IMG/VR virus record: IMGVR_UViG_3300025120_014869
Coordinates: 1 to 64,000 of that record
Origin: a virus
Strand: one strand, 5' to 3'
Length of the DNA: 64,000 nucleotides
Shown: positions 573 through 53,499 of the stretch, piece by piece
Position numbering within the stretch: position 1 is the stretch's first letter
Layout: each line of letters starts with the position of its first letter
Notes under the pieces: model-generated
The model's input: only the letters and a program-made list of their open reading frames with translations
What the model was told of the DNA's origin: nothing
The model's database searches: none
Program-made: the position numbers and the translations under genes

Positions 573-1280
573 ATGATTAAGTTTGATAAAAAATCTCACA
601 AGTATGTTTGTGAGAAAACTGGTAAAGAATTAATTTCAACTACCACTCTTATTGGTAAATATAAAAAGCCATTCGATAAAAAAGAGCATGCAACTCGAGT
701 TGCTAATCGAGAAGGATTAGAAGTAGATTTTGTCCTTGAAATGTGGGAGAAAGAAAAAAATAGAGCTTGTGATTATGGTACTAATATTCATGAAGTAATG
801 GAAGATTATCTTACTTTAGGTAAAAAAGAAGATCAATATGAATCTTTATATACATCTTATGATAAATGGAAGCATATTTTTAAAGGTTTTCCTACATTAA
901 TGTGTGAAGAAAAATTATATGATTTAGATAACTTTATTGCAGGTACAGCAGACTTAATTTATGAAAATAAAAATTATTTTATTATCGGTGATTTTAAAAC
1001 TAATAAAGCTTTTAATTTTTATTCTCCTTATAATGAGTTTTTATTACAACCGGTTCATCATTTAAGTGCATGTGAATTTAATACTTACGCATTACAATTA
1101 TCATTTTACGCATATATGTATGAGAAACTTTCAGGTAAGAAATGCGCAGGTTGTGTTATAATGTATAAAGATAAAACAGATAAATTTTACCCTATACGAG
1201 TTAACTATCTGAAGGCTGAAGTGCTTGTTCTAATAAAGCACTACAATGGTCCCAATTCACCACTTTTAAAAAATTCTTAA
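573..1280 (+). CDS. PD-(D/E)XK (RecB/Cas4-like) nuclease family protein
   Basis: 235 aa. The nuclease core is visible as IAGTADLIYENKNYFIIGDFKTNK in two parts: the Asp of GTADL and the D-x-K of GDFKT, followed by the helix motif ALQLSFYAYMYEK (Q-x3-Y) typical of RecB-family exonucleases. Likely acts on DNA ends in host DNA degradation or phage recombination; the exact role is unknown. Its last 80 bp overlap the 3' end of the superoxide dismutase gene on the other strand, and both C-termini look genuine for their families. Expression is from a start-proximal sigma70-type promoter. Confidence 0.75.
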   Translation: MIKFDKKSHKYVCEKTGKELISTTTLIGKYKKPFDKKEHATRVANREGLEVDFVLEMWEKEKNRACDYGTNIHEVMEDYLTLGKKEDQYESLYTSYDKWKHIFKGFPTLMCEEKLYDLDNFIAGTADLIYENKNYFIIGDFKTNKAFNFYSPYNEFLLQPVHHLSACEFNTYALQLSFYAYMYEKLSGKKCAGCVIMYKDKTDKFYPIRVNYLKAEVLVLIKHYNGPNSPLLKNS

Positions 1281-1842
1281 TATATTTTTCTCTATCAGGG
1301 CCATACTTTTTATAATAAGCGTGCTCCCATACATCAATACCAAGAATACAATCACCCATACCATACATTAATGGATTATCTTGATTGTCAGTTTGTATAA
1401 TTTTAAGTTTATTATTTTTTAAAACTAACCATACCCAACCTGACCCGAAATGGGTTTTAGAATTTTCTATAAATTTTTCATAGAAATTTTCAACTGATTT
1501 AAAATCTTTTTCAATATGTTCTTTAATTTTACCTCTTATTGAATGCTTATCAGGAGTCATCATTGACCACCAAATTTGATGATTAAAAGCACCGCCTGCA
1601 TTATTTTTAACTGCATCTTTTCTTTTACCTGCAACTTTTATTAATTTATCTAATGGTGTTTTAGTTGATGTAACTGCATCATTTAATTTTTTAATATAAC
1701 CTTTATAATGTTTATTAAAATGAAGTTTCATTGTTTCTTCATCTATATGCGGTTCTAATGCATCAAATTTATAAGGTAATTTTACTGGTTTATAACCTCC
1801 TACTTGCTCTAAAATTAAGTTTGATAATTCACTATAGTTCAT
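1201..1842 (-). CDS. Fe/Mn superoxide dismutase with N-terminal tag
   Basis: 213 aa. Converts superoxide to peroxide and oxygen. All four metal ligands are present: H41 (HFNKHYKGY), H88 (NHQIWW), D170 and H174 (DVWEHAYY). The family domain normally starts near LPYxxDALEPHI, here residue 22; the preceding residues MNYSELSNLILEQVGG are an extension ending in I-L-E, matching the prohead-protease consensus seen in many other late genes of this window. ATGA overlap with the upstream NUDIX gene puts both under one late promoter. Function as an enzyme is well supported; packaging into the head is my inference. A host-derived auxiliary gene is the likely origin. Confidence 0.9.
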   Translation of the reverse strand: MNYSELSNLILEQVGGYKPVKLPYKFDALEPHIDEETMKLHFNKHYKGYIKKLNDAVTSTKTPLDKLIKVAGKRKDAVKNNAGGAFNHQIWWSMMTPDKHSIRGKIKEHIEKDFKSVENFYEKFIENSKTHFGSGWVWLVLKNNKLKIIQTDNQDNPLMYGMGDCILGIDVWEHAYYKKYGPDREKYIKNFLKVVNWDHCSALLEQALQPSDS

Positions 1843-2228
1843 TTTATTATATTTAGATCCTTTTTAGCTTTATTGTTAAGTTTTATTTTATTAATATCTT
1901 TTACGTTAATAAATTTAAAACCAATATGTTCATCACTTAATTTTACTATATTAGTCTTTAACTTACAACTATAAATTATTCTATTAGGAATACTTTTTAA
2001 AATTTTCAAATTTGATATTTTTATACCGGTTTCTTCAAAAAATTCTCTTTTTGCTCCATCTAAATAAGATTCACCTTTTTCTACATGACCACCTGGAACT
2101 TCAAAAGTATTATCTTTATTCTTTAATAATAATATTTTGCCTCTATAGAAAGCTATAGTTTTTGCAGATAGATTAGAATCCTTTTTTGGACGATTATTAG
2201 CAAACTCTTTAAATAAAGATATTCTCAT
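1839..2228 (-). CDS. NUDIX hydrolase
   Basis: 129 aa. The NUDIX box spans residues 46-68 (GGHVEKGES ... REFFEETG, with the REFFEE core), so it should hydrolyse a nucleoside diphosphate linked to another moiety; the substrate is not predictable. N-terminus MRISLFKEFANNRP resembles the tagged late proteins but lacks a clear L/I-x-E. First gene of a two-gene late operon with superoxide dismutase, 4-bp overlap. Confidence 0.85.
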   Translation of the reverse strand: MRISLFKEFANNRPKKDSNLSAKTIAFYRGKILLLKNKDNTFEVPGGHVEKGESYLDGAKREFFEETGIKISNLKILKSIPNRIIYSCKLKTNIVKLSDEHIGFKFINVKDINKIKLNNKAKKDLNIIK

Positions 2229-2235
2229 ATAAATA
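2228..2235 (+). promoter_or_regulatory. Late promoter word TATAAATA, plus strand
   Basis: Exact TATAAATA; 30 nt before the ATG at 2266, so this transcript would have a short leader, unlike most late genes here. Confidence 0.45.
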
Positions 2236-2241
2236 TTTATT
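2229..2241 (-). promoter_or_regulatory. Late promoter, NUDIX-SOD operon
   Basis: AATAAATA (2241-2234) then 5 nt to ATG 2228. It interlocks with a plus-strand TATAAATA at 2228-2235. Confidence 0.6.
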
Positions 2242-2265
2242 TAACAAAAAATAAAATAAAATGAT

Positions 2266-2748: not shown

Positions 2749-4797
2749 TTACTTGCTTGTAGCTCTGTAAACCTTATCCCAATCTTCACCTGGATCATTA
2801 TCTTTTAATTCCATAACTCTTTCTCTCATTACGTTATAATAAAAGTCAATAGGAGATTTTTTTAATAATATTTCATCTAATAAGATAATAGCTTTCATCC
2901 AATCTCTATTCTTATAATGCTTAAGAAATGATTCATGTTTTATATAATTAAAAGGTTCATCTAATACGGTATATATTTGTATACCTTCTTTCTTTCCTTT
3001 AACAGCTATTTTATCTAATTCTATAAATTTAAACTTATCTTCAATGTGTCTTATAGTTTCTCTACCTAATAATATTTTTACCCCATAAGATTTAGTTTGA
3101 CCTTCCAATCTAGCAGCTAAATTAACTCCATCTCCTAAACATGTATAATCGAATCTTTGATCAGATCCCATGTTACCTACAACAACATTACCAGTATTAA
3201 TACCTATACCAATTGCAAGTTCCTTTTTACCTTCTTTTTTAAGTTCCTCATTTAGTTCATCTAATTTTTTAAACATCTCTAAGGAAGTTTCAATAGATCT
3301 AACTCTATGTGAAATTCTATCACCTTCAATAGGTGCGTTCCAGAAAGCCATTAAAGCATCTCCTATATATTTGTCAATTGTCCCGCCAGATTCCATAACT
3401 AAATACGTCATCGGGGTAAGATATCTGTTAATCAGATTGGTTAAATCTTGTGGATTATCTTTAAATTGTTCACTAATTGTGGTAAATCCTCTTATATCTG
3501 AAAATAATATTGAAAGTTCCTGTGTTTCTCCGCCTAATTTAAGCATTTCTGGATTTTTTTGTAGCTTTTTAACTATTTCAGGAGCTAAATAGTGTTCAAA
3601 TTGTTTTTTAATCTGCATTTTTCCTTTATATTCATGGATAAATCTTAAGAATATAGCAATTGTAAATACTATAAATGAACTATACACTGGGTAGGTAAAA
3701 TCTATCAATAAATTATGTTTAATAAAGAGATCAAAGCCTAAAATAGGTAAAGATAACACTACTAAACTTATAAGTACCCCATTTACCACCCATAGAAAGT
3801 TAAGAGCACATAGCGTTAACAATAAACTAAGAGCTAACGTAAAAGCTATTTCATATAACGTAGATTCAACAGGTCTTATTAACGCATTATCATGTGCTAA
3901 AGTTTCAATTACTTGCATATTAAGCTCATGACCATTGCTAATTGATATAGGAGTTGCTACTGAGTTAGATAAACCTTCTGCAGTTAAAGCTATAACGGTA
4001 ATTCTATTTTCAACACTTGACCAATCATCACTTACAACTGAAATTTTATCAAATTTTGTATCAAAATTAATCCAAATACGTGCATTTTCATCAGTCTTGT
4101 ATGTACCTGCATTTTTTAAACGTATAGCGTTAACACCAGCATGGTCTGTTTTAACTTGATATGATTCATCCCCAACTAATACTCTTAAAACTTCAAGAGG
4201 TAAAGTAGGATAAACTTCTCCTTTAACTTGTATCATTAAAGGCATACGTCTAACTACACCATCTAACTCTGGAGCTGTAACAGTCATACCTACTCCTTTA
4301 GCAAATAAACGTACATCTTCGATAGGACCAATACCATTAGGATAATCATATAACCAATCTGTTAATTCTACTGAACCTATAGCAGTTATTTTTTGCGATA
4401 CTAACTCACCCTTACCTTGTATTGACGCTGACTGTGCAGTAACTACTGGTAAAGCAAATAAAGTTGTTCTAAAAGTATCATCTCCTCCTAGTCTATCTTC
4501 TTCAGCAAATAAAATTGGTACCACAACAAGAGCTGCTCCATTCATATAAGCTTTTTCAATATAACTTGATAAAATATCTCGTTTCCAAGGCCATTGCCCA
4601 TGTTTTTCAAGACTTGCTTCATCTAATTCTACTATAGTAAATAATTCAGACTGTCTAATATTTTGAGTTTTTTGATAATAGTCTAAACCTTTCAGTCTTA
4701 AAATTTCTACTGGGTATGGATCATATATTCTTAATGCTGAAAACAATACTGCAACTAATGCACAGTATAAGAAAGGTTTAAATTTGTTAAGTTTCAT
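2749..4797 (-). CDS. CHASE2-domain class III adenylate/guanylate cyclase
   Basis: 682 aa. Order: N-terminal membrane helix (about 8-24), an extracytoplasmic CHASE2 sensor domain (about 30-300), three membrane helices (about 310-385), and a class III nucleotide cyclase domain (about 400-620). Catalytic signatures are intact: FSDIRGFT with D434, KYIGDALMAFW with D480 as metal ligands, and TCLGDGVNLAARLE. It should make cAMP (or cGMP) at the inner membrane in response to an envelope signal. It overlaps the FecR-domain gene by 4 bp; FecR-CHASE2-cyclase pairs are known in bacteria. Very unusual in a phage. Regulatory target unknown. Confidence 0.9.
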   Translation of the reverse strand: MKLNKFKPFLYCALVAVLFSALRIYDPYPVEILRLKGLDYYQKTQNIRQSELFTIVELDEASLEKHGQWPWKRDILSSYIEKAYMNGAALVVVPILFAEEDRLGGDDTFRTTLFALPVVTAQSASIQGKGELVSQKITAIGSVELTDWLYDYPNGIGPIEDVRLFAKGVGMTVTAPELDGVVRRMPLMIQVKGEVYPTLPLEVLRVLVGDESYQVKTDHAGVNAIRLKNAGTYKTDENARIWINFDTKFDKISVVSDDWSSVENRITVIALTAEGLSNSVATPISISNGHELNMQVIETLAHDNALIRPVESTLYEIAFTLALSLLLTLCALNFLWVVNGVLISLVVLSLPILGFDLFIKHNLLIDFTYPVYSSFIVFTIAIFLRFIHEYKGKMQIKKQFEHYLAPEIVKKLQKNPEMLKLGGETQELSILFSDIRGFTTISEQFKDNPQDLTNLINRYLTPMTYLVMESGGTIDKYIGDALMAFWNAPIEGDRISHRVRSIETSLEMFKKLDELNEELKKEGKKELAIGIGINTGNVVVGNMGSDQRFDYTCLGDGVNLAARLEGQTKSYGVKILLGRETIRHIEDKFKFIELDKIAVKGKKEGIQIYTVLDEPFNYIKHESFLKHYKNRDWMKAIILLDEILLKKSPIDFYYNVMRERVMELKDNDPGEDWDKVYRATSK

Positions 4798-5921
4798 TGT
4801 TGATTAATATTTATAATTACTTGTCCACCGTTGTTATGATCGCCAGATATAAACGTACCTTGATTTTCATAATTAACTGAAACAGATGAAGTTGGGTCAA
4901 AAGATATACTAACTTTATTTTGATTTTCTTCAGCTATAAAATATATTCTATTATCTATTTCAGTAAAGATTGATTTTGCTTCTTGTTCAGATACTATTAT
5001 TTTTTCAAAAGCAATTATTTCTTGTTCTCTTTCGATTAATTCTTCCTCGTTTATACCTTCTTCAACATCAGTTTGATCCTCTTCTGGTTCGGGTTCTGGC
5101 TCAGGCTCTGCTTCTGGTTCAGCTTCTTTTTTATCACCATCTTCTTTTTTATCATTATTATCTTCCTTTGAATCATCACCTTCATCTTCTTCTGCCTCTT
5201 CTTCAGCTTCTTCATCCGCTTCTTTATCTTCCTTTTCTTTTTGTTCTTGCTTTTTAAATTTAGATATATTTGTACGAGATAGAACAACTGGAGGAGTAGG
5301 TGGTGAAATCATACTTGTAACAACTGTATTTTCAAATGGTATAGTTAAAAGTACACTACCAGATATATTACTAACTTCAATTTTACCTGTATATTCATTA
5401 CCAAAACTATCTAAAGAAGGTAGTAAAGTAAATGAACTTTTACCGGATTCTGATACAGTTATATTGAAATCAGTACCTCTAACTGAAACTGAAGCAGTTG
5501 GTGTACTTATTTTTATATTTTCTTTATTAGCTATTAAACCTGACGTATATCTAATATTACCTAATGATGCTTTTAAATTTAATTTACCTTTTTTTGTATT
5601 AGGTTCATATACGAAATCATCAATTACTAATTCACTATATTCTTTTATTTTTACTTTCGTGTTATCTTCAAACACTAAATGAACGACGCCATTGAGTGTC
5701 TCAATAACGTCGTCCATATTTATTAAAGTACCTTTTTCAGTTAATATTTTATCATTACTTCTTATAATTTGTGCTGGTTGTGATTGGTAACTTACTTTAC
5801 CAACTGAACCAAAACAAACATTAACTATTAAAAAATTAAGGGTTAGTACCGTTACCCAAGTATATAACTGAGTTACTTGGATTAAGCGGTGGTGAAATAT
5901 CTGCTGTATTATAGAATCCAT
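4794..5921 (-). CDS. FecR-domain envelope protein with acidic linker
   Basis: 375 aa. A hydrophobic segment (about residues 22-38) is followed by a FecR-type beta domain (about 45-190; includes GTLINMDDVIETLNG and STPTASVSVRGTDF, a hallmark of FecR-like proteins), then a long Glu/Lys/Asp/Pro low-complexity linker (about 215-290) and a beta-rich tail. The upstream gene is overlapped by 86 bp because no ATG, GTG or TTG exists in frame between 5921 and the hydrophobic segment, so the start is uncertain. It likely works with the cyclase directly downstream, as in bacterial FecR/CHASE2 pairs. Confidence 0.75.
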   Translation of the reverse strand: MDSIIQQIFHHRLIQVTQLYTWVTVLTLNFLIVNVCFGSVGKVSYQSQPAQIIRSNDKILTEKGTLINMDDVIETLNGVVHLVFEDNTKVKIKEYSELVIDDFVYEPNTKKGKLNLKASLGNIRYTSGLIANKENIKISTPTASVSVRGTDFNITVSESGKSSFTLLPSLDSFGNEYTGKIEVSNISGSVLLTIPFENTVVTSMISPPTPPVVLSRTNISKFKKQEQKEKEDKEADEEAEEEAEEDEGDDSKEDNNDKKEDGDKKEAEPEAEPEPEPEPEEDQTDVEEGINEEELIEREQEIIAFEKIIVSEQEAKSIFTEIDNRIYFIAEENQNKVSISFDPTSSVSVNYENQGTFISGDHNNGGQVIININQQ

Positions 5922-6582
5922 CTGATTGAATTATTGCGAATGAAGTATCACTACCAACGTGCGTTAATTCAAGAACTTGTGAATTAAGACCAGCTTGGTG
6001 TATATCTAATTGATTATTACTACCAGCAATATCAACTATTTGTGTATGTCCTATACCTCCAGGATTACCTTCTTGTACTGATGCTACACTATTAAAACCA
6101 CCAAAAACATTATAGTCGATTTTAGAAAATGATGTATCATTTAAACTAAAATCAATTTGATTATTTGTGCCGTATACATTTAAATCAAAATCTTGATTAT
6201 TAATTAAAGCTGTATTACCATCTATATAACCTTCAATTTTAAGTAAATTACTATCACCTACTACAGCAATATCTAAATCATTTTTATCACCATTAAAGTA
6301 AATATCGAAAGCATTATTGTTACCTTCAGTATATATGTCAACTAATGTTTCATCTCCTTCAGAGTCCCAAATAATACTATTTGTATTACCTAATTGTATG
6401 ATAGTAAAGATGTTACTATCACCGTTAATATATGCAAAATTATCTCCCGAGCCGATAGAATTGTCATCTCCTATTTGTGTTATATCATAGGTACCAGTGT
6501 TACCTACTTGATCAATGTAAATTTCATTATCTGCATAGAGTAATGAACTGAATAATAATGTAAGAAGTGTAATGTATTTCAT
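5836..6582 (-). CDS. Curlin-repeat (CsgA/CsgB-like) secreted protein
   Basis: 248 aa from ATG 6582, chosen because it begins a signal peptide (MKYITLLTLLFSSLLYA) and has a late promoter 5 nt upstream; a TTG further up is not needed. The mature part is built of about ten degenerate repeats of roughly 20 residues with alternating hydrophobics and G-x-x-N turns, e.g. IDQVGNTGTYDITQIGDDNS, as in curli subunits. It is Asn/Asp/Gly-rich and nearly free of Lys. It is the plausible substrate of the adjacent CsgG/CsgF secretion genes. Amyloid formation is inferred, not shown. Confidence 0.8.
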   Translation of the reverse strand: MKYITLLTLLFSSLLYADNEIYIDQVGNTGTYDITQIGDDNSIGSGDNFAYINGDSNIFTIIQLGNTNSIIWDSEGDETLVDIYTEGNNNAFDIYFNGDKNDLDIAVVGDSNLLKIEGYIDGNTALINNQDFDLNVYGTNNQIDFSLNDTSFSKIDYNVFGGFNSVASVQEGNPGGIGHTQIVDIAGSNNQLDIHQAGLNSQVLELTHVGSDTSFAIIQSDGFYNTADISPPLNPSNSVIYLGNGTNP

Positions 6583-6595
6583 ATAATTATTTATC
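6583..6595 (-). promoter_or_regulatory. Late promoter of the curlin-like gene
   Basis: GATAAATA (6595-6588), 5 nt, ATG 6582; lies over the 3' end of csgG. Confidence 0.6.
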
Positions 6596-7459
6596 AATTT
6601 TTATAAGATAATTGTCATTATCTAAAAGATTTACATCATTACTAACTTTATGGTTCTTATCTTCATCTAACTCCCATATACCTTTTTCATCTCCTTTATG
6701 AATTAAATCTATTATAGCTGCGGCTATAGCACATCTTACTGCTATAGAATTACGTTCATTATTAGTTACACCAAATTCTCCTTCCATTAATTCAGGTTCA
6801 GTATCTAAATCAATATACTTAAAATATGTATTAGCTGATCCTATGCTTAATATAGTTTTTGATACAGTAGATGATAATAATACTTCACCTGTTTGAGAAC
6901 TAACCATACGAAGAGAAATAGTTACTACATCTTTTCTGTATTGTTTGCCAGCTCCTACTCCTTTAAAGAACAATCCTACCCCACCAGTAACATAATTACT
7001 TTCAAAAGATATTATACCACCTTCTACTATTAAACCTGCATATAACATTGGTTGTATATCAGGAAGATTTTTATCATCAAAACTTTGTCTTGTATTTTTT
7101 ATTAAATTTCTTTCAGTTAAAACGTTTTGTAAACCCTCTCTTTCTAAAACTTTAAACCATTCACCATTTCCAGCATTTAATAATTCTTCTACCAACCACG
7201 CATAACCTCCTTGTGTTACTGATGACGAAAAACTTGCAAAAGCATCTCCTTCTTTTCGTTGTCCTGTAAGATCTTTGAATGAATACGGTGCTACAAAAAC
7301 GTGACCTTTTTTAAGTTTAGGATATTCATAATTTTGCCATATAAATTTATTATTTTCAATTGAATATCTTTTTATATTATCATTTTGTGGTAAGTTTCTG
7401 ACTGGCATTGTAGCACAACCAGAAAAGAATATAATAGATAAAAGTAATAAAATTTTCAT
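6587..7459 (-). CDS. csgG: CsgG-like curli secretion channel lipoprotein
   Basis: 290 aa. N-terminal lipoprotein signal MKILLLLSIIFFSGCATMP with a lipobox ending at C15. The body follows E. coli CsgG closely: VAPYSFKDLTGQRK, WFKVLEREGLQNVLTERNLI, LIVEGGIISFESNYVTGGVG, SSQTGEVLLSSTVSKTILS and the late acidic LMEGEFGVTNNE. CsgG forms a nonameric outer-membrane pore for curlin export. It lies 1 nt after csgF and just before the curlin-repeat gene. Near full length compared with E. coli (277 aa). Recognition is strong. Confidence 0.93.
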   Translation of the reverse strand: MKILLLLSIIFFSGCATMPVRNLPQNDNIKRYSIENNKFIWQNYEYPKLKKGHVFVAPYSFKDLTGQRKEGDAFASFSSSVTQGGYAWLVEELLNAGNGEWFKVLEREGLQNVLTERNLIKNTRQSFDDKNLPDIQPMLYAGLIVEGGIISFESNYVTGGVGLFFKGVGAGKQYRKDVVTISLRMVSSQTGEVLLSSTVSKTILSIGSANTYFKYIDLDTEPELMEGEFGVTNNERNSIAVRCAIAAAIIDLIHKGDEKGIWELDEDKNHKVSNDVNLLDNDNYLIKIDK

Positions 7460-7460
7460 A

Positions 7461-7904
7461 TTATGGTGTGGGTATATATAATGAACCTACAGGTATTGTA
7501 ATTGTTGTCATACCCCCTGTTAAAGTATCGTAAACGTCTAAAATAATATTATCTGAATTTTGGGTCCAAGTAATAGTACTATCCTCTAAAGTAAATGAAC
7601 CGGTGGCTCCTGATTCTGAAAATAATTGCTCTGTAATAGATTTAGTTAATTCTGAATAAATTCTAGATTGTAAATTTGTCATAAAAACATTTACTGGCTC
7701 TCTAGATTCTGCTAATGTTAACTGTAATGCTAATGCTTCTGCCTCTTCAACTAAATTTGTTTTTCTAGTGAAAGATATATTTTCAATATTTAAAATATGG
7801 CTTGAATAGCCTATACCATTAAATGTTGGAGATTTAAATTGAAATTTTAATTCACTTGATATCAATGCTATAGGTAAAATTAAAAAAAGAAATATCTTTT
7901 TCAT
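7461..7904 (-). CDS. csgF: CsgF-like curli assembly protein
   Basis: 147 aa. Signal peptide MKKIFLFLILPIALISS followed by ELKFQFKSPTFNGIGYSSHILN, corresponding to the mature CsgF start (TMTFQFRNPNFGG), the part that inserts in the CsgG pore. The rest (TNLQSRIYSELTKSITEQ) matches CsgF FTQAIQSQILGGL. CsgF sits at the CsgG exit and couples export to nucleation. Immediately upstream of csgG with its own late promoter. Confidence 0.88.
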   Translation of the reverse strand: MKKIFLFLILPIALISSELKFQFKSPTFNGIGYSSHILNIENISFTRKTNLVEEAEALALQLTLAESREPVNVFMTNLQSRIYSELTKSITEQLFSESGATGSFTLEDSTITWTQNSDNIILDVYDTLTGGMTTITIPVGSLYIPTP

Positions 7905-9218: not shown

Positions 9219-9869
9219 TTACTTATTCTTCTTATCTTTAGTTTTCCAGAAGTATTCATCTGTATCACCTAATCTATATTCAAAACCATTCTCAACTTGA
9301 TAAAACTCTGTACTAACCATAAAGTCAGGAGTCAAAGGAGTTTGTGGAGTTAAAGAGTTATCATACACTCTCATTCTATTATTAGGATATAATGCATATT
9401 GACCATTTTCTAATTCAATAACATTAAATGATTTATGTTCAGCAGGTACTTCAGCTGTAGAATAATCTGGTTGATCAGTATTAACGTGATAATTATCTAA
9501 AGTAAACATATATGTACCTTTTACAATATCATGCGTTCTTGTAAATACCTCAAAATCCATACTACCAATAAATTGTTTATATAAACACGTTACGCCATAA
9601 TCCATACAATTCCAAAATTGCAAATTTGGTAAATCGTAATCAGGTTTAGGTGTTTCAGGCGAAGAAACAAAAGCAGTAATTGGTAGTTTATCAAAAACTG
9701 CCCCATATTCAGGTAAAAAGGTTTCAAAGTAAAAAGCTCTACCAGGAATGCTTTTAGCAGTTACCCAATGACCTTCAACGAATTCACCGTGACCATCTTT
9801 TCCATCTCTAAGATATTCTTTTCTAACGTACACTTTCGTGTTTGGTAAGTTACATATTAATTGACTCAT
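9219..9869 (-). CDS. Conserved T4-like marine phage protein, unknown function
   Basis: 216 aa. From memory the N-terminal region (TKVYVRKEYLRDGKDGHGEF, then VTAKSIPGRAFYFETFLPEY) is a widespread conserved protein of T4-like cyanophages without assigned function. Downstream of queE by 3 nt, so co-transcribed with it; a link to base-modification chemistry is possible but unproven. Confidence 0.7.
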   Translation of the reverse strand: MSQLICNLPNTKVYVRKEYLRDGKDGHGEFVEGHWVTAKSIPGRAFYFETFLPEYGAVFDKLPITAFVSSPETPKPDYDLPNLQFWNCMDYGVTCLYKQFIGSMDFEVFTRTHDIVKGTYMFTLDNYHVNTDQPDYSTAEVPAEHKSFNVIELENGQYALYPNNRMRVYDNSLTPQTPLTPDFMVSTEFYQVENGFEYRLGDTDEYFWKTKDKKNK

Positions 9870-9872
9870 AAA

Positions 9873-10610
9873 TTATACTTTTAATGCCATATCCCAGATG
9901 ACTAATTGTAAACGTGGGCTGAATTTTAAACTATGCTTTTTACACATATCAGCTACCATAGATGATTTTGCTGTATGTTCTTCTCTACTACCAGCACAAG
10001 GCATTAACCAAACGTTTTCTCTATTACATATACCGTTATCAATATATTTTTCAAATAATTCTTTCTCATCATCTTCACTATTAATAACAAATTTAAAACA
10101 TTCACCTCTTTTATTATGATGAGCTATAACATCAGGTTTATATCTTCTCTTCTCTGGATCACCATTATTACTCATTTTAGGAGATAAAGTAAATGTAGCA
10201 TTATATTCAGTATACCATTCTTCTTTAGGCATAATAGTACTATTAGATTCAAAATCAATACGAGGTTTAAATCCAAACCTTTCTACAAAAGTTTCTAACC
10301 ATTCAAGTAATCTTTTTTGTTGTAATAAAGGTTCACCACCAGTTATTTTTAATATAGCACCTCTTTTTAATTCTTCATCAAACCCATTATTTGCATAAAA
10401 ATTATTAAGTTCATCAAATGTATATCGATTTTTAACTGACCATGATACAAATGAATCGCAACCATGAGGTGAGTCCGGAGAGGCAAAACCTTGACACGTT
10501 AAATTACACATTGCCATTCTCATAAAAACAGATGGCCAACCGATATATTTACCTTCACCTTCTACGGTATAAAATACATGATCGTCACTTAAAGATAAAA
10601 CATTATTCAT
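9873..10610 (-). CDS. queE: 7-carboxy-7-deazaguanine synthase QueE (radical SAM)
   Basis: 245 aa. Converts carboxy-tetrahydropterin to 7-carboxy-7-deazaguanine. Cluster-binding region FMRMAMCNLTCQGF then C51 gives C35, C39, C51, an expanded spacing compared with the usual CxxxCxxC but like phage QueE forms. SAM-binding GGEP at 91-94 in KITGGEPLL, and substrate region DFESN. Belongs with FolE2, QueD and the QueC-like gene in this window. Confidence 0.88.
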   Translation of the reverse strand: MNNVLSLSDDHVFYTVEGEGKYIGWPSVFMRMAMCNLTCQGFASPDSPHGCDSFVSWSVKNRYTFDELNNFYANNGFDEELKRGAILKITGGEPLLQQKRLLEWLETFVERFGFKPRIDFESNSTIMPKEEWYTEYNATFTLSPKMSNNGDPEKRRYKPDVIAHHNKRGECFKFVINSEDDEKELFEKYIDNGICNRENVWLMPCAGSREEHTAKSSMVADMCKKHSLKFSPRLQLVIWDMALKV

Positions 10611-11468: not shown

Positions 11469-11705
11469 TTCTCTAAGAGCATCTTCAAAGCTAATAGGTC
11501 TTACTTCAGGACCTTTATCAACTTGTTGTACTTCTTCTTTTGGTAGTTCATTATATAATAATTCTGCCATCTGTTGAGTTACATCATTTTCTAATTTTAC
11601 TAACTTTGGATCTCTTTCACGGGAAACAGGCATACCACTAGATATACCTGTTTGAATTATAGGTGATTTATTTATATTATTTTGATATACATCTTCTAAC
11701 CCCAT
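11451..11705 (-). CDS. Hypothetical 84-aa protein
   Basis: 84 aa, acidic, no membrane segment. It overlaps the end of queD by 10 bp (translationally coupled) and the end of phoH by 18 bp on the other strand. C-terminus FEDALRELRDMG is helical. Not recognised. Confidence 0.55.
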   Translation of the reverse strand: MGLEDVYQNNINKSPIIQTGISSGMPVSRERDPKLVKLENDVTQQMAELLYNELPKEEVQQVDKGPEVRPISFEDALRELRDMG

Positions 11706-12373
11706 GATGTCCCTTCAAATGGATTACCCATACCTTTTGTTACTTTATTTTTTAAAGGAGAAGCATATTCTTTCTTTTCTTCAACAGGTGGTTGTACTGG
11801 CTCTTCTTCTTTATTTTCTAAATTTAACTCTTCTTGATTAGGATCTTTAGGATGGGTAGGTAATGTTTTTGCAATTTCAGGATCGACATTGTAATCTAAA
11901 CCTTCTCTAGGAATATAATGCGTTTTATAAACTTTAGCATCATTTTCATAGATGGCACTATTACCTTCATGCTCCCAAACTTCTACCTTAACAACTTCTA
12001 CTCTATCTTTTGTAGTAGATCTAACATAATTATTAACTGCACCGAATACCCATTCAGCAGTCTTTTCAATACCAACTGCTTCCATAATGCGTAAATCAAT
12101 CATAGCTTTACTATCTAAATCTTTAAATGTCTCTAACTCTGGATCATCTTCAGCAACGCAAGTTGTATGATCAAATTGTTTTTCTAATAATTTTTTAATC
12201 TCTTTACAACCACCGAAATCATATACCCAATTATTATCATCAAGTTCGTTTGTTGTAAACCATAACTTACATTGCAATCTATAACCATGTATTAATCTGC
12301 AATGACTCTGAGCCTTCCATTGACGAAAAGCTGTACTACCCATAGGAATTATTTTAGTTGATACGTATCTCAT
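11696..12373 (-). CDS. queD: QueD-like 6-carboxytetrahydropterin synthase with C-terminal extension
   Basis: 225 aa; the enzyme domain covers about 1-145 and the rest is a Pro/Glu/Lys-rich tail. Family marks: SHCRLIHGYRL (H24, C25, H29), VYDFGGCKEIKKLL, FDHTTCVAEDDPE, and VEVWEHEGNSAIY with the catalytic Glu. The usual HGHxY zinc pair reads HGYRL, so one zinc His is replaced by Y31. Makes the pterin precursor for QueE from dihydroneopterin triphosphate. TATAAT lies 9 nt before the ATG. Confidence 0.82.
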   Translation of the reverse strand: MRYVSTKIIPMGSTAFRQWKAQSHCRLIHGYRLQCKLWFTTNELDDNNWVYDFGGCKEIKKLLEKQFDHTTCVAEDDPELETFKDLDSKAMIDLRIMEAVGIEKTAEWVFGAVNNYVRSTTKDRVEVVKVEVWEHEGNSAIYENDAKVYKTHYIPREGLDYNVDPEIAKTLPTHPKDPNQEELNLENKEEEPVQPPVEEKKEYASPLKNKVTKGMGNPFEGTSWG

Positions 12374-12453: not shown

Positions 12454-13668
12454 TTAAGCTTGATCTGTAGTATCGTCTAAGTTTTGAGAAGTATATTTTG
12501 GTTTAACCTTTGCTTTCTTAATTTTACTAGCTAGAATCTTTTTAGCTTCATCACCTATTTCTTCAGTAGATTTTAATTTTCTTTTTGCTTCAGCTTTTTT
12601 TCTTTTAGGAGATTTTATTACTGGTTCTTTTTTTGATTCACCGTTATCTAATGGTAATTTTGTTTGCTTATCACTTAATTGTTTTATTGTAGCAAAATAA
12701 TCATCTATACTATCAATAACGAAATCTTTTCTTCTATCTAAAACAGTTTTAGGTAGTACTTTAAATAGTATATCTTCTGCAAATTTTCTTGCATCTTTTA
12801 ATTCAATATCTAAATCATTACTATCAATTTTACCGGCATTAATTTCATCAATACTATATTGACCTTCAATAGCTTGTTGCAAAGATGTTTTAGCTATAGC
12901 TTTTCCGAATATTTTATAGTAATTATTTTTAATATCAGTTTTAAGAACTTGAAAGCCAGCAGGGTTAAGATTTAATATTGCAAATCTCTTCAACGCTTCA
13001 GTATCATCGCCAGCAAAATATTCAATATTATCTTTAAAATCAGTATATATTCGATTATTACCAATTCTTTTTAAAAGAGTGGTTGATAAAAAATCAGGTA
13101 CTAAAGCTAGAACCTTATCTTTGGTTAATTTTTCTTCTTTTTCTTCCCCTGCTTTAGCTTTTTCTGCTTGTGTTATTTGTTGTTGTATTTTATTATGATA
13201 GTCTTTATCAGCATCTGATAGGTCATTAAACTTACCTTTCGCTCCCATATCAACAGCGTTTTTAAATCTACCATCTCGAGCATATACCTTCTTAAATTCT
13301 TCTGATGCATTTCTTAACATATTTTGAAGCATATCTTGAGCTTCTCCATCTGATAAATCTCCTTTTTGTAGCTTAGCAAATAACCTTGCATTTTCTAATT
13401 CAGCTTTTCTTGCAGCAGCTTCTGCAGATCTTGCTTCTGCAGATCTCATTTTAAAACCTCTTGTACCAGGTATAGATCTTGCAACAGCACCTATACCTTT
13501 ACCAATAGACCCTAATAAATTACTACTACCGGTAGATGGGCTTTTAGAAGTTACAACCTCATCAAGTTGTTTCTTAAAGTTACCGCTTTCATATATCTTT
13601 TGAATCTTTTGATTTTCAGTAATACCAAAAGCTTTTTCAACTTTCTCAAATAAATCTTTATCTTCCAT
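12454..13668 (-). CDS. Large basic late protein, unknown
   Basis: 404 aa. Long helical, Ala/Lys/Glu-rich (about 70-190), a middle folded part, and a Lys-rich tail (about 345-390, KSPKRKKAEAKRKLK). N-terminus MEDKDLFEKVEKAFGITE contains I-T-E but is less tag-like than others. No enzyme motif recognised. Late promoter 7 nt upstream. A head-internal or DNA-binding role fits composition and timing but is inference. Confidence 0.65.
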   Translation of the reverse strand: MEDKDLFEKVEKAFGITENQKIQKIYESGNFKKQLDEVVTSKSPSTGSSNLLGSIGKGIGAVARSIPGTRGFKMRSAEARSAEAAARKAELENARLFAKLQKGDLSDGEAQDMLQNMLRNASEEFKKVYARDGRFKNAVDMGAKGKFNDLSDADKDYHNKIQQQITQAEKAKAGEEKEEKLTKDKVLALVPDFLSTTLLKRIGNNRIYTDFKDNIEYFAGDDTEALKRFAILNLNPAGFQVLKTDIKNNYYKIFGKAIAKTSLQQAIEGQYSIDEINAGKIDSNDLDIELKDARKFAEDILFKVLPKTVLDRRKDFVIDSIDDYFATIKQLSDKQTKLPLDNGESKKEPVIKSPKRKKAEAKRKLKSTEEIGDEAKKILASKIKKAKVKPKYTSQNLDDTTDQA

Positions 13669-13703: not shown

Positions 13704-14747
13704 ATGTCAGATAAAGTAAATAGTTATGAATGGTTAGGTGAAGACGATGAGCTCACCGGAGAAAAAGATATTATTGCAAAAGAAATAATGGGAGAAGAAT
13801 ATAGTAAGAGTTACTTCCCTCCTATTAGAGTATATGATAATAACGTAAAAGCAGATAAGAAGTATATTTCTTCATTACCTGATTTGCAGAATGGTCCTTC
13901 TAGTTTAATTCAAGGAGCTCCAGTACCTATCCAACAAGTAGGTATACATAATTTTAAATTACCTTTAACTTATAAAAAGAGAGATGGTAAAACTATTGAG
14001 TTAGAGACTAGCGTTACTGGCAGCGTTAGTCTCGAGGCTCATAAGAAAGGTATTAATATGTCTCGTATTATGAGAAGCTTTTATGATCATAAAGATGAGA
14101 CGTTTAGTATTAATAAGATTAAAGATGTATTAGAAACATATAAAAATAATCTTAAGAGTTTTGATTCACGTATTATGCTTAAGATATCTTATCCGATTAA
14201 GCAGAAGAGTTTACGTAGCGGTTTAGAAGGTTTTCAGTATTATGATGTAGTATTTGAAGGTGATCTTACTAAAGATGGAGAGTTTAAAAAGTATATTCAT
14301 TTCGATTTTGTATATTCATCTGCATGTCCTTGTAGTTTTGAATTAAGTGAGCATGCTGAAAAATATCGTAACCGTGCTACTGTACCTCATAGTCAACGTA
14401 GTGTTGCAAGAGTAAGTGTACGTTTTGATGATATGTTATGGGTAGAAGATCTTCAGGAGTTATGTCTTGCAGCTTTACAGACTGAAACGCAAGTTATGGT
14501 TAAGAGAGAAGATGAGCAAGCATTTGCTGAAATGAATGGTTCATTTTTAAAATTCGTAGAAGATGCAGTAAGATTATTATATGAAAAATTAGCTAATGAA
14601 TCTCGTATTAAAGATTTTAAGATTGTAGCTTCTCATAATGAAAGTCTTCATAGTCATAATGCAGTATCAGTTATCGTTAAAGGTGTAGAAGGAGGCTTCT
14701 CAGCAGGTGTTGCTAGAGATGTATTTGAAACTACTGGACTTAGATAA
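13704..14747 (+). CDS. folE2: GTP cyclohydrolase IB (FolE2)
   Basis: 347 aa, slightly longer than usual (about 260-300) through a 60-residue N-terminal region. Family marks: PVPIQQVGIHNFKLPL, SLEAHKKGINMSRIMR, SSACPCSFELSEH with the metal Cys, and PHSQRS. Converts GTP to dihydroneopterin triphosphate, the shared first step of folate and 7-deazaguanine synthesis. With QueD, QueE and QueC-like it gives the phage the whole route. No partner in its immediate operon besides small ORFs. Confidence 0.93.
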   Translation: MSDKVNSYEWLGEDDELTGEKDIIAKEIMGEEYSKSYFPPIRVYDNNVKADKKYISSLPDLQNGPSSLIQGAPVPIQQVGIHNFKLPLTYKKRDGKTIELETSVTGSVSLEAHKKGINMSRIMRSFYDHKDETFSINKIKDVLETYKNNLKSFDSRIMLKISYPIKQKSLRSGLEGFQYYDVVFEGDLTKDGEFKKYIHFDFVYSSACPCSFELSEHAEKYRNRATVPHSQRSVARVSVRFDDMLWVEDLQELCLAALQTETQVMVKREDEQAFAEMNGSFLKFVEDAVRLLYEKLANESRIKDFKIVASHNESLHSHNAVSVIVKGVEGGFSAGVARDVFETTGLR

Positions 14748-48093: not shown

Positions 48094-49125
48094 ATGATAT
48101 CCGTACCTGAGCAGTATGTTATAGATGTACTATATGAGAATGTTTATAAAATCTCATATAACAAATATACTAAAACCTATAATGGTTGCTGCCCTATATG
48201 TAAAGAAGGAGGTTCTTGGGGTAAAAAGAAAAGATTTTATTATATACCTAATAAAGAATTAGCTTATTGTCATAATTGCGGTTACAGTAAAAAAGCTCTC
48301 GTCTTTATTACTGAAGTTACTAATAAACCTCTTCATTTTGTTATAAATGAAATAAAAGACTTTGATACTGAAATTATAATTGATAAAAAAGAAGAGGTAA
48401 TAAAAAAAGAAATTAATAAAAGTTTACCTGAAGATTGTATTAATTTATCTGATGTAAGTCAAATAGAATATTATAAAGATGATCCAGCAGTTAAAGAAGC
48501 TTTAAGGATTATAAAAGAAAGAAAATTAGATAAAGGTATTAATAAACCTAAAACGTTTTATATTTCATTAAACGATCCTGTACATAAAAATAGATTAATA
48601 TTACCTTTCTATAATGAAATAGATGAAATTATATTTTATCAGAGTAGAGGTTTATTAAAAAAAGATTTATTTAATAAACCAAAGTATCTGAGTAAAGTTA
48701 ATGCAGAAAGAAGTTTATATGGGGTACAAAATATTGATTCTTCTTTAGAACAAGTTTTTGTATTTGAAGGACCTATAGATAGTTATTTTTGTAAAAATGG
48801 ATTAGCTACTTGCGGTATTACAGAAAATAGCAATAGAATGTTTACATCATTGCAGAAAGAACAGTTAAATAAACTTAACTTTTATGATAAAATTTATGTA
48901 TTAGATAATCAATGGTTAGATAAAGCAGCATTGAATAAAAGTATAATTTTAGCAGGTAGTAATGAAAAAGTATTTGTATGGCCTAAAGAATTAAAAACCT
49001 TTAAAGATTTCAATGAAATATGTGTTGCAGGTAATAAAGACAAAATAAGACCTGAATTTATATTAAAAAATACATATTCAGGTCTTAAAGCTAAAATTTT
49101 ATTAACTGAAATAAAAAATAGTTAA
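48094..49125 (+). CDS. 61: DNA primase gp61
   Basis: 343 aa. Zinc ribbon CPICKEGGSWGKKKRFYYIP then AYCHNCG, followed by a TOPRIM domain with FVFEGPIDSYFC (catalytic Glu) and YVLDNQWLD. Works with gp41. TTAA stops shared with the converging gene. Confidence 0.9.
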   Translation: MISVPEQYVIDVLYENVYKISYNKYTKTYNGCCPICKEGGSWGKKKRFYYIPNKELAYCHNCGYSKKALVFITEVTNKPLHFVINEIKDFDTEIIIDKKEEVIKKEINKSLPEDCINLSDVSQIEYYKDDPAVKEALRIIKERKLDKGINKPKTFYISLNDPVHKNRLILPFYNEIDEIIFYQSRGLLKKDLFNKPKYLSKVNAERSLYGVQNIDSSLEQVFVFEGPIDSYFCKNGLATCGITENSNRMFTSLQKEQLNKLNFYDKIYVLDNQWLDKAALNKSIILAGSNEKVFVWPKELKTFKDFNEICVAGNKDKIRPEFILKNTYSGLKAKILLTEIKNS

Positions 49126-49412
49126 TTTTTATTAAGAGGTTGTTCTTTACCTACAAAACCAGGAGCTCTACTACCGGTAGTCATAAAATCTACGTATTGA
49201 TTTAAGGTTTTCAATTCACTTACTATAGCTTCTAATGATTGCTCTATATTACCAAAAGCAATATCTTCATTATCTTCACAATCTAAAGGTTCCATTTGAC
49301 CTAATTGGTCATCTTCAGGAGCCTCTTCCGGGGCATACTGATCATTTACATCTTCAGAAATAGTTTTACCTGCTAAGTATCTTTCAAAAATTATTTTTTC
49401 TTCGTTATTCAT
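49122..49412 (-). CDS. Acidic late protein with tag
   Basis: 96 aa. MNNEEKIIFERYLAGKTISE (I-F-E and I-S-E), acidic Pro/Glu middle, helical end. Downstream of the 136-aa tagged gene. Unknown; candidate head-internal protein. Confidence 0.6.
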   Translation of the reverse strand: MNNEEKIIFERYLAGKTISEDVNDQYAPEEAPEDDQLGQMEPLDCEDNEDIAFGNIEQSLEAIVSELKTLNQYVDFMTTGSRAPGFVGKEQPLNKN

Positions 49413-49429
49413 AATTATACATATTTATA
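49413..49429 (-). promoter_or_regulatory. Late promoter
   Basis: TATAAATA (49429-49422), 9 nt, ATG 49412, inside the 3' end of the upstream gene. Confidence 0.5.
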
Positions 49430-49825
49430 TTTAGGATCATTTGCTCCAGCTAGGTAGCCTTTTAAAATTTCACTTAAAGATGATATTTCCATTGCAACTC
49501 TTGCAATCTTTTTAGTTTCAGCATTTGAAATGCTATCAAATAAAGTATCATCTTCAGCAGTATTGAGTTTAGTTTGTACACTACCTTCTGTACCATTTAA
49601 ATAATTTGAAAATCTATCCATTTCTTGTATCCATGAATTTAATTCATCATACATTTCTTTTTGTCCGTTGGCTATTGGTGCATCTGGCACGTCTACGTCA
49701 AAATCACCTGTATCAGTACCGTCATCCAACGTAGCATCCATTGCTTCTGTATCAGTAATTTCACTGTCTAATTCTTCGTCTTGTTCATTTAAAAACTTAG
49801 AAAACTTTTTTACATATAAACTCAT
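49415..49825 (-). CDS. Acidic late protein with tag
   Basis: 136 aa from ATG 49825 (MSLYVKKFSKFLNEQDEE, L-N-E), chosen for its late promoter 5 nt upstream. Asp/Thr-rich linker then a helical domain (about 55-130). Shares a palindromic promoter with the divergent tagged gene. Unknown. Confidence 0.65.
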   Translation of the reverse strand: MSLYVKKFSKFLNEQDEELDSEITDTEAMDATLDDGTDTGDFDVDVPDAPIANGQKEMYDELNSWIQEMDRFSNYLNGTEGSVQTKLNTAEDDTLFDSISNAETKKIARVAMEISSLSEILKGYLAGANDPKYKYV

Positions 49826-49847: not shown

Positions 49848-50231
49848 ATGCATTCTAAAGTAAACTTCAATGATTTTTTATCTCAACTAAATGAAGACAT
49901 CGGATCCGACAATATGATACCTGATTCTCAAAGGCAACAACTTGGACTTAAGTCTGAAGTACCTGCTCAACAGACGTCAGTTAATGATATGATGAGAAGA
50001 CAAGGAAGAACTGATGTTGCACCAGAAAATATACCATACCCGTTAGGTCAGTTTGAAGATACTGCATCTGAAGCTTATGTTGCTATACAGAATTTAGAAC
50101 AGATACTTAAAATAGCTAAAACTAATGAAGTTATTAAGAATAAAAAACCTTTAGATGCTATTGGCAAAGAATTAATCAATTTAAAAAAAGAAATAGTTGA
50201 TATTTCAAGGAAAGTGTCTAAAATAAAATAA
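49848..50231 (+). CDS. Late protein with tag
   Basis: 127 aa from ATG 49848 (MHSKVNFNDFLSQLNEDIGS, L-N-E), not the longer upstream frame, because the late promoter ends 5 nt before it. Gln-rich then helical C-terminal half. Unknown. Confidence 0.65.
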   Translation: MHSKVNFNDFLSQLNEDIGSDNMIPDSQRQQLGLKSEVPAQQTSVNDMMRRQGRTDVAPENIPYPLGQFEDTASEAYVAIQNLEQILKIAKTNEVIKNKKPLDAIGKELINLKKEIVDISRKVSKIK

Positions 50232-52203: not shown

Positions 52204-52508
52204 TTTTCGATTACAAATTTACCTATATTATCATCAAAGTATAGACTTATACCAGTACTACCTAATTTTTTAGTTTCACCTTTATAAGGTATAACTTTAT
52301 ATTCATCTCTTATATATGTTAAGTCTCTCCCATCACATATCTTTTTACCTTTACCATTACGAAGTGATTCTATCTTATTATTTTTAGTAGGGTCTGATTT
52401 AACGTAATCAGGTACTAAATTAAGATGTTTTCTTCTATAGTTTTTATCGTGGTCGGTATAACCTCTACGATGTCTATGGTTGGTAAAAAATTTAGAAAAT
52501 GTATCCAT
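52200..52508 (-). CDS. 102-aa basic late protein
   Basis: From ATG 52508 (MDTFSKFFTNHRHRRGYTDH). Basic, small beta-rich end. ATGA-type overlap with gp14; may be a neck/virion accessory protein. Unknown. Confidence 0.6.
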   Translation of the reverse strand: MDTFSKFFTNHRHRRGYTDHDKNYRRKHLNLVPDYVKSDPTKNNKIESLRNGKGKKICDGRDLTYIRDEYKVIPYKGETKKLGSTGISLYFDDNIGKFVIEK

Positions 52509-52522
52509 CAATATTATTTAAG
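52509..52522 (-). promoter_or_regulatory. Late promoter of gp14 operon
   Basis: CTTAAATA (52522-52515), 6 nt, ATG 52508, directly after a terminator. Confidence 0.45.
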
Positions 52523-52529
52523 CAAAAAA

Positions 52530-52551
52530 AAAGCTGGTCGAAACCAGCTTT
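52530..52551 (-). terminator. Intrinsic terminator
   Basis: Stem AAAGCTGGT / ACCAGCTTT with a TTCG loop on the minus strand, followed there by a T run; ends the core-like gene transcript. Confidence 0.85.
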
Positions 52552-52572
52552 AATTTTCTTTAATTTTTTAAA

Positions 52573-53499
52573 TTAGTTAGATTGGTAATAATCTTCACCT
52601 GCACTATAAGCTACTTTATTAGATCCTGGTGATACTTTAGAAAGACCTGAATCTTTTTGATTTACTAATGGATGACCTTCGTCGTTCACTGAATAACTAG
52701 TAATTTTTGGCTTTGAATTTTTACCGCCTTTACCTTTTTTAGCTTTAGATGATACTACGCTTTTGACTTGATTTGAACCACCTGTTACTGAAGTAGGATT
52801 ACCACGTTTTTGATTTACTAATGGATGACCTTCATCAGTAGCATCAACTGCTTCTTTATGAGTCTCATCTTCATCTTCATCTTCACCGTCTTCTTCGTCT
52901 TCTTCCATTTCATAATGTTCACCATCTTCATGTTCCATGTCTTCATGCTCCATGTCTTCTGCTTCAGGATCTTCATCACCAATAGCTGCTTGTAAAATAT
53001 CGCAAAGCTGTTTCGCCATATCTTTGTTTAATGTTACCGTAATTTCATCAGAGCCCTCATCATCTCCACCCTCTTCGGTATCTACTCCTAGAGCTTCTAA
53101 TTCTTGTTGTTCTTCATCAGACATTACATTTTCAAAAAGTTTGTCAAAAGTTGATTTCATATAATTATTTATAGACTCTTTAACCTTTTTTCCAATTTTT
53201 TTATCATAATTTTCAGAAGAGTAAATTTTTGGCTCGTATGCATTTTCTTTTTTACTCTTTTTAGGGTCGATAGGTTCATGAATACCTTCAACTTGATCTG
53301 TTTCAGTAGTTTCTTTATTCTGCATATCTTGTGCTTGTTTACTATTCAACTCAACTGGTCCTTTACCAACTGTATTGCCCGGTAAACCACCTTTCATGTT
53401 TCCAGATTTAGCAGCCTTTTCACGAGCTGAAGATTTTTCAGATATAATGTTATCATTATATGTATTCCATATTTCGGTTAGAGTATTTACACGAGTCAT
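52573..53499 (-). CDS. Acidic late protein with nested late start (core/scaffold-like)
   Basis: 308 aa from ATG 53499 (MTRVNTLTEIWNTYND then IISEKSS: L-T-E and I-S-E). A Glu/Asp-rich centre (about 205-245), and two copies of DEGHPLVNQK about 45 residues apart near the C-terminus. Inside, M114 begins MKSTFDKLFENVMSDEEQQE preceded by a perfect late promoter, so a 195-aa form (52573-53160) is probably also made. Acidic composition fits a head core or internal protein; function inferred. Confidence 0.7.
   Translation of the reverse strand: MTRVNTLTEIWNTYNDNIISEKSSAREKAAKSGNMKGGLPGNTVGKGPVELNSKQAQDMQNKETTETDQVEGIHEPIDPKKSKKENAYEPKIYSSENYDKKIGKKVKESINNYMKSTFDKLFENVMSDEEQQELEALGVDTEEGGDDEGSDEITVTLNKDMAKQLCDILQAAIGDEDPEAEDMEHEDMEHEDGEHYEMEEDEEDGEDEDEDETHKEAVDATDEGHPLVNQKRGNPTSVTGGSNQVKSVVSSKAKKGKGGKNSKPKITSYSVNDEGHPLVNQKDSGLSKVSPGSNKVAYSAGEDYYQSN
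53161..53173 (-). promoter_or_regulatory. Internal late promoter
   Basis: Exact TATAAATA (53173-53166), 5 nt, in-frame ATG 53160 inside the 308-aa gene. Confidence 0.65.

Follow-up and report, generated by a model that had tools for sequence, protein, structure and literature searches.

The internal proteins of bacteriophage T4 and the T4 protein Alt carry a capsid-targeting sequence (Mullaney and Black 1996, via PMC9026906). In internal protein IPIII the determinants of targeting were placed at residues 4 and 7 and those of processing at residues 8 and 10, with cleavage after L/I-x-E (PMC9026906), and the existence of such tags and their spread among the internal proteins of T-even phages are already known (PMC9026906, PMC3012670). 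Here we analyse N-terminal segments of similar make in a stretch of 64,000 nucleotides, referred to below as the window, which covers the first 64,000 bases (1-64000) of a virus record 78,260 bases long (IMG/VR record IMGVR_UViG_3300025120_014869; the record as a whole is labelled G000). We consider it very probable that these segments are propeptides for capsid targeting, like those of the T4 internal proteins, that they are removed by the prohead protease gp21, and that their use has here been extended to enzymes and to polyprotein cargo.

The phage is T4-like and is known only from environmental DNA. Its gene content has the look of a T4-like myovirus, with a gp17-like terminase, a plus-strand replication block and tail genes running rightward (names assigned by eye); the terminase is matched by 2505 phage records, each at less than 60% identity. 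The nearest long relative, the contig G001, has 185,197 bases; its gp17 is 84% identical and its superoxide dismutase 66%. As 96 reciprocal best hits link it to G000, it was chosen for the tests of conservation. The comparisons also drew on the relatives G002, G003 and G006, and on the reference phages T4 (NC_000866), HTVC008M, S-RSM4 and XG4.

Results

The gene at 18767-20662 (minus strand) encodes a fusion of DUF6267 (Pfam, residues 15-392) to an NMNAT-like nucleotidyltransferase (CTP_transf_like, residues 442-532), and its product begins MKTLKQYITE/Q (tag at 20633-20662; here and below, a slash marks the predicted cut). Open reading frames (ORFs) with the NTHLTHLEE edge of DUF6267 were examined in 82 cases, duplicates included. 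Untagged forms, 43 of the 82, start with a methionine 4-6 residues ahead of the edge (MAKANTHL). A further 38 have [LI]xE 2-5 residues ahead of it, 30 of them at the start of the ORF, seven internally and one at a contig end, and one more ORF reads VVE. The 30 tags at ORF starts comprise 21 distinct sequences, such as MSLLDE/GKANTHL, MPTLLKE/GSANTHL and the MKTLKQYITE/QKKANTHL of the window, and at least one of these cases (L108) lies at a contig end and is possibly internal; the seven internal sites are found within longer chains, for example as KELLTE/AKANTHL. Because the methionine of the untagged form sits at the edge itself, the predicted product of cleavage coincides with the natural start of that form, and in this family the tag is separate from the mature domain.

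A site of the same type precedes the nucleotidyltransferase. One pattern picked out 13 distinct ORFs; 12 of them have [LI]xE shortly before the first strand of the domain and the remaining one reads FLE, and the site is present there both at ORF starts and after DUF6267. In the window fusion it reads MYNFLKE/FNDN and ends at residue 430, within an internal tag-like helix (FGEMYNFLKE/FNDN; 19373-19402, minus strand), which makes E430 a candidate cut site between the two domains. Linkers between DUF6267 and the transferase hold [LI]xE in 43 of 46 distinct cases, against 27.9 for shuffled sequences, and contain 114 such sites against 45.4. An AlphaFold model of the window fusion (mean pLDDT 70, pTM 0.41) has a low-confidence helix at residues 4-14 and a low-confidence linker, at approximately residues 344-435, that contains a helix at residues 421-433. 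The order of the domains is swapped between the window and polyproteins of the L097 type, and the site precedes both modules in each. In S-PM2 a DUF6267-transferase fusion (GC71) is untagged and its linker lacks [LI]xE.

Above its cut-off, Pfam recognised only DUF6267 and the nucleotidyltransferase in the window fusion, and no peptidase. Two polyprotein ORFs from elsewhere (L106 and L107, 962 residues) contain a tag, the nucleotidyltransferase, an HExxH stretch (TLRHELEHVSQ, recognised by eye) and DUF6267, with tag-like [LI]xE segments between them. In a fold search the 50 matches listed, out of 781, were NMN adenylyltransferases and their relatives, matching the C-terminal half of the fusion, with no ligase among these 50. 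DUF6267 contains the motifs KWDG and EGYV, which we take to be ligase-like, and since the fold search listed no ligase this reading of the domain stays at the level of motifs. The term DUF6267 was not found in the open-access papers searched.

The basic module encoded at 17849-18187 (minus strand; phrog_7595 at residues 22-112; tag MQFNNLVIELLNE/Y at 18149-18187) forms the C-terminal end of chains whose upstream parts differ greatly. Its junctions were counted at the 80 best loci out of at least 597, which gave 79 rows and 42 distinct junctions: 20 read [LI]xE/AEY, 11 [VMFWY]xE/AEY, three LxD and eight something else, the backgrounds being 1.4% for [LI]xE and 3.1% for [VMFWY]xE.

The Fe/Mn superoxide dismutase (1201-1842, minus strand; Pfam Sod_Fe_N and Sod_Fe_C) carries the tag MNYSELSNLILE/QVGGYKPVKLPY (1807-1842). 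The best-matching solved superoxide dismutases, most of which have their first residue no more than a few positions from the conserved start, align from about residue 17-21 of the query to their own residues 3-7, so that MNYSELSNLILE is a piece added before the usual start of the enzyme. The tag itself was compared with that of G001 only (MNYDNLTDLLLE/E); the scan for relatives gave one viral contig, and 28 phage records match more distantly. Adjoining this gene is a Nudix-like gene (by eye; 1839-2228, minus strand) whose N-terminus, MRISLFKEFANN, resembles the tags in feel and lacks [L/I]xE; it has no reciprocal best hit in G001. The retropepsin-like protein (PF05618; 15732-16148, minus strand, GTG start) has the relaxed tag xISFKNFFE/S (16122-16148). 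Its homologues read xI[STN]FKxFFE/S in 15 of 17 viral loci, and in the other two, which are 52% identical, MKTFLQYIEE/K, in the T4 register.

One homologue with such a tag is a virion protein. The cytidylyltransferase T4-GC190 was detected in purified virions of S-SM1 (Sullivan et al. 2010, PMC3037559); the gene marked GC 190 in the S-SM1 record, SSM1_190, has the N-terminus MKKFSAFLNE/AERSF, and its product and the C-terminal module of the window fusion both match phrog_395. MKxFxAFLxE/A is kept in 80 of 80 fetched relatives of GC190 (the best 80 of 126), in which the residue before the Glu is T in 38, N in 21, I in 10, S in eight and V in three; as all of these relatives are at least 74% identical, the conservation of the motif is partly plain kinship. 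GC190 was also reported among proteins encoded by S-PM2 that went undetected in its virions, where several known structural proteins were likewise missed (PMC3037559). The stretch of the S-PM2 record that we examined has no gene marked GC190, and the non-detection was given no weight.

Of the 104 genes called on the 78-kb record, 33 have [LI]xE within residues 5-22, against 17.4 expected from shuffled N-termini (z 4.45) and 16.0% in internal windows, in agreement with the claim of the initial annotation that the motif marks many N-termini. Its background in an 18-residue window is 13-19% across nine genomes, so that some of the 33 raw hits are chance. The motif is kept in both G000 and G001 in 23 of 95 orthologue pairs, compared with 8.2% of 2675 internal windows (p 1.9e-6), and a looser motif in 32 of 95 pairs, compared with 20.5% internally (p 0.0019). 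When the position of the Glu was plotted for 96 genes, a peak was seen at residues 8-15, with 15 and 11 hits per four-residue bin, against 2-4 per bin at residues 24-51.

By class, the motif occurs in 17 of the 40 genes on the minus strand, in 4 of the 29 for replication, in 7 of the 21 structural genes on the plus strand and in 6 of 14 others. The excess of the minus-strand genes is clear when they are set against the replication cluster (p 0.0096), and is not clear when they are set against all plus-strand genes (17 of 64; p 0.07). Since the motif is also frequent in the plus-strand structural and other classes, it is insufficient by itself to mark a gene. Counting of the bare motif was rejected as a detector: it is significant, yet its background is high, and it was weakest in HTVC008M (z 0.79).

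Expectation-maximisation from random seeds, applied to all N-termini of four relatives (G001 inside the training set, G000 outside it), recovered the motif F-x-x-[LIFY]-[LF]-x-E. Its likelihood was 286; six control runs on internal segments gave 180-216, and six on shuffled N-termini gave 155-184. This fits positions 4, 7, 8 and 10 of T4 IPIII. In G000, 10.6% of N-termini score 7 or more, against 2.6% of internal segments. As a classifier the motif was set aside, many non-tags ranking high, in T4 also.

The strict T4 register was found in eight genes of G002, against 1 of 563 internal methionines, and in five genes of G003, against 2 of 600. In T4 itself it is confined to three ORFs, namely gp61.1 and two proteins reading MKTYQEFIAE/A, which we take to be IPII and IPIII. 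The gp61.1 protein (54 residues, annotated as hypothetical; NC_000866 18966-19130, minus strand) begins MKTFKEFIKE/D, an N-terminus which suggests that it may have been missed as one of the internal proteins of the head.

Seven relatives, G001 and six other chosen long contigs, were searched for head genes, and all seven encode both a gp21-type (S77) prohead protease and gp23. In G001, gp23 reads CLNE/AGP where T4 has FLTE/A (aligned by eye), and gp22 starts MDIKQILSE/A. The T4-type late promoter word TATAAATA stands 11-20 nucleotides upstream of 5 of 20 tagged genes and 0 of 29 replication genes in G000, and of 6 of 24 tagged and 0 of 31 replication genes in G001, where it also precedes gp21 and gp22 (Fisher p 3e-5 with both genomes pooled). 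The exact word is absent at 15 of the 20 tagged genes of G000, and over all genes some other words made up of these letters occur more often in the promoter slot (maximum 17 against 10); only the contrast between gene classes was used, the exact word not being over-represented among permuted words. The initial annotation had called the tagged genes late, a label that this contrast favours and that the exact word leaves without a mark at three-quarters of them. In G000 the word starts 13-18 nucleotides before ten start codons (2749, 7461, 10725, 23672, 49122, 49415, 49848, 52573, 61877 and 75199). As this leaves 5-10 nucleotides to the start codon, late mRNAs may have little or no leader.

Altogether 21 tagged genes were listed in the window on the strength of their N-termini, 16 with strict tags ([L/I]-x-E ending at residues 8-21) and five with relaxed ones (F/Y/V-x-E), in keeping with the earlier count of at least 15; the seven N-termini first given as examples are all present at their reported positions. 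Twelve of the 21 form a minus-strand run, 15732-22422, whose genes are all tagged. After the retropepsin-like gene the run continues with a small basic protein (16166-16342; MEQNIESLNE/Q, tag 16313-16342); a basic protein with a GTG start (16366-16632; xKFDELANFYLNE/A, tag 16594-16632; orthologue MKFDDLFEFYVNE/A); a 53-residue basic protein (16629-16790; MNKFDTILE/S, tag 16764-16790; orthologue MEEKITFDQLVE/S); two basic proteins with relaxed tags, at 16787-17281 (MTESFKFFTE/S, tag 17252-17281; orthologue MKTFKLYYE/N) and at 17293-17493 (MINFKTFHE/N, tag 17467-17493; no reciprocal best hit in G001); and a further basic protein (17490-17855; MVRKFDTLVEKILLE/A, tag 17811-17855; orthologue MKFTTLVEKILLE/A). 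The basic module and the fusion come next, and between them a plus-strand gene for an acidic protein is also tagged (18216-18770; MDKETNLIFE/K, tag 18216-18245). The run closes with a protein of no assigned family and a relaxed tag (20659-21681; MSWRSLDKIYKE/D, tag 21646-21681), weakly similar (E 3e-06 over 57 residues) to a G001 protein reading MSWKPLDQVYLNE/S; an acidic protein, also with a relaxed tag (21678-22004; MKKFLEAFDKVFE/Q, tag 21966-22004), at whose position G001 has MKKFLKAYNNILE/Q (paired by eye); and the gene at 22006-22422 (MDKFTSIANKILAE/K, tag 22381-22422).

The other candidates are scattered. On the minus strand lie those at 12454-13668 (MEDKDLFE/K, tag 13645-13668; orthologue MTDKELFE/K) and 23672-23923 (a basic protein with a GTG start; xKKTTLFE/K, tag 23900-23923; late promoter word 13 nucleotides upstream), and four for acidic proteins: 35511-36785 (MSLDNWKEKKIIVE/D, tag 36744-36785; orthologue MSLNNWSNRKIITE/N), 49122-49412 (MNNEEKIIFE/R, tag 49383-49412), 49415-49825 (MSLYVKKFSKFLNE/Q, tag 49784-49825; orthologue MSLYQKRFKKFLSE/Q) and 52573-53499 (MTRVNTLTEIWNTYNDNIISE/K, tag 53437-53499; orthologue tag ending NNSILSE/N). 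On the plus strand is 49848-50231 (MHSKVNFNDFLSQLNE/D, tag 49848-49895), which, like the last three of these acidic proteins, has the late promoter word upstream. Some of the 21 may be false, the weakest being those at 12454, 23672 and 22006.

Two other groups of genes in the window deserve mention. Those at 9219-10610, 11696-12373, 13704-14747 and 34765-35514 have motifs that may indicate 7-deazaguanine (queuosine/preQ0) synthesis, with DNA base modification as a possible role. A curli-like cluster on the minus strand (2749-7904), kept in G001 (56804-61813), comprises genes for a CHASE2 and guanylate cyclase protein, FecR, CsgG (PF03783, 2e-46) and CsgF (PF10614, 1e-15), together with a 248-residue protein whose repeats are curlin-like by eye and which has no match in Pfam or PHROGs. 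Melnitz and the pelagimyophages have been reported to carry csgGF without csgA/B (PMC9004378), so that a curlin-like gene would be a new element.

Discussion

That these proteins enter the prohead and are clipped, as the initial annotation proposed, is well supported by comparison: tags are placed at domain edges, untagged homologues start at the predicted cut, the same site recurs at junctions, gp21 and gp23 are encoded by relatives, and one tagged homologue has been detected in virions. For this phage we infer docking, cleavage and injection. The tagged proteins would be synthesised late, each bearing a short amphipathic helix that would dock it on the scaffold core of the prohead; a gp21-type prohead protease would cut after the Glu of [L/I]-x-E at maturation, and the mature parts would remain inside the head together with the DNA, from where they would probably be ejected into the host. 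The kit would number some 20 proteins, including Lys-rich and acidic proteins and enzymes (superoxide dismutase, the DUF6267-NMNAT fusion and the retropepsin-like protein). Superoxide dismutase, the fusion and the proteins rich in Lys can fairly be counted as candidates for such cargo. So can the retropepsin-like protein, whose own tag ends FFE but whose distant homologues are in the T4 register; as to the histone-like protein first included with them, Pfam and PHROGs named no such family for the five or six basic proteins scanned.

In the wider family, fused modules bear tag-like [L/I]xE segments at their joins, and a single entry into the prohead could deliver several enzymes. We lean slightly towards a broader proposal. 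Many environmental T4-like phages, on this view, make cargo polyproteins of enzymes and DNA-binding modules, with a capsid-targeting helix and a site for gp21 at the joins; the prohead protease would then act on polyproteins as well, and a set of several enzymes (for NAD or nucleotide chemistry and for superoxide removal) would be loaded for injection at the start of infection. By this rule of sequence further virion cargo would be predicted, T4 gp61.1 included.

Might the tags be an accident of composition? In an AT-rich genome whose proteins abound in Lys, Glu, Leu, Ile and Phe, [L/I]xE is frequent, and the best cases could have been picked from the resulting background, which does account for some of the 33 hits; 7 of 21 plus-strand structural genes also have the motif. 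Enrichment, conservation, the unsupervised rediscovery of the motif and its position at the edges of domains, whether the homologues are tagged, untagged or fused, nevertheless make this explanation highly improbable. A somewhat less remote but still improbable alternative is that the helices serve to bring proteins to the prohead core and are left uncut, or are cut in some proteins only. The relaxed P3 residue of five tags would suit it, and LxD, seen at three of the 42 distinct junctions of the basic module (in 25 of the 79 rows), recalls the finding in T4 that Asp at position 10 blocks processing while still allowing targeting (PMC9026906). Against it, the Glu is constant in the 80 relatives of GC190 while the residue preceding it varies, and [L/I]xE recurs at junctions that are otherwise unlike. 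Amphipathic helices serve many roles, and the segments could instead recruit proteins to the host membrane or to a replication compartment, or be a signal for a host protease. The presence of the same type of site in G001 gp22 and gp23, and of a tagged homologue in virions (PMC3037559), leaves this the faintest of the three prospects.

Several observations weigh against reading the segments as cleaved capsid-targeting propeptides. More than half of the DUF6267 ORFs are untagged, including that of G006, which has gp21. The gp21 (S77), gp23 and gp20 portal families were unmatched on the 78-kb G000, in searches where no positive control rang for gp21 and gp20; the gp21-type protease of G000 is thus deduced from the seven relatives. 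The gp23 site of G002 and G003 is CME/A. At the basic module, the LxD form is LFD, the edge in the window protein itself is SSED/AEY (of the "other" kind; its tag ends earlier), and the Glu before AEY could partly reflect conservation of the module. P3 is F, Y or V in five tags, and the G001 counterpart of the gene at 22006 (paired by eye) reads MDMFNQLANSILKKID, without LxE at that place. Depletion of [LI]xE from mature parts was considered as support (26 against 39.3 expected for the window list; 55 against 74 with G001 added) and rejected as non-specific, because the control [LI]..E was equally depleted (54 against 75); with an automatic tag rule no depletion was seen, and it was not used.

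The likeness to T4 is also loose in places. Motif scores contrast slightly or not at all between N-termini and internal segments in T4 (3.8 v 2.5%), HTVC008M (3.6 v 2.3%), S-RSM4 (3.6 v 1.7%) and XG4 (2.2 v 2.3%). The strict T4 register is found in only two genes of G000, one of them doubtful, in two of G001, and in none of G006, HTVC008M, S-RSM4 or XG4; as so few follow it, the window tags are of the same make as those of T4 and freer in length. A template with the spacing of T4 IPIII is about 2-fold enriched in G000 (12 of 104 against 4.7%), as in G001-G003, G006 and T4, and shows no enrichment in HTVC008M, S-RSM4 or XG4; it was rejected as a detector for being too rigid.

If cleaved capsid-targeting propeptides are what these segments are, sequence could tell which hypothetical late genes of T4-like phages encode head cargo, and the enzymes delivered could be predicted; a mechanism detailed mainly in T4 would come to include enzymes, superoxide dismutase for one, and polyproteins processed by a protease, which are otherwise linked to RNA viruses; and ready-made tags would be at hand for the loading of phage heads. 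No prior account of such tags in marine T4-like phages was recognised in the open-access papers searched and, as far as these tell, what is new is the scale, the enzymes that are carried and the joins within polyproteins.

The closest known system remains the internal proteins and Alt of T4, which have in common with the predicted system of the window an N-terminal propeptide of 10-20 residues, a hydrophobic spacing that the window tags follow loosely, the cut at [L/I]xE, basic or enzymatic cargo and a gp21-type protease, here found in relatives. They differ in number, about 21 candidates here against four in T4, in the more variable tag length and P3 of the present set, and in its superoxide dismutase, DUF6267-NMNAT and retropepsin-like cargo and fused modules. 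T4-GC190 of S-SM1 has the PHROG of the C-terminal module of the window fusion, the tag MKKFSAFLNE/A and the status of a virion protein (PMC3037559), and is encoded by a stand-alone gene; the section of that paper which reports it makes no mention of a tag. In phiKZ and SPN3US, which have an S80 protease, head proteins are likewise cut after a Glu motif and several are ejected with the DNA, but the motif is S/A-x-E in phiKZ, the propeptides of SPN3US are mostly long, and the protease belongs to another family (PMC9026906, PMC5694885). The polyvalent proteins of phages also combine several unlike enzyme domains in one chain and are thought to be injected; there, release has been proposed to depend on embedded peptidase domains (PMC5512222), whereas here it would depend on sites for a separate prohead protease.

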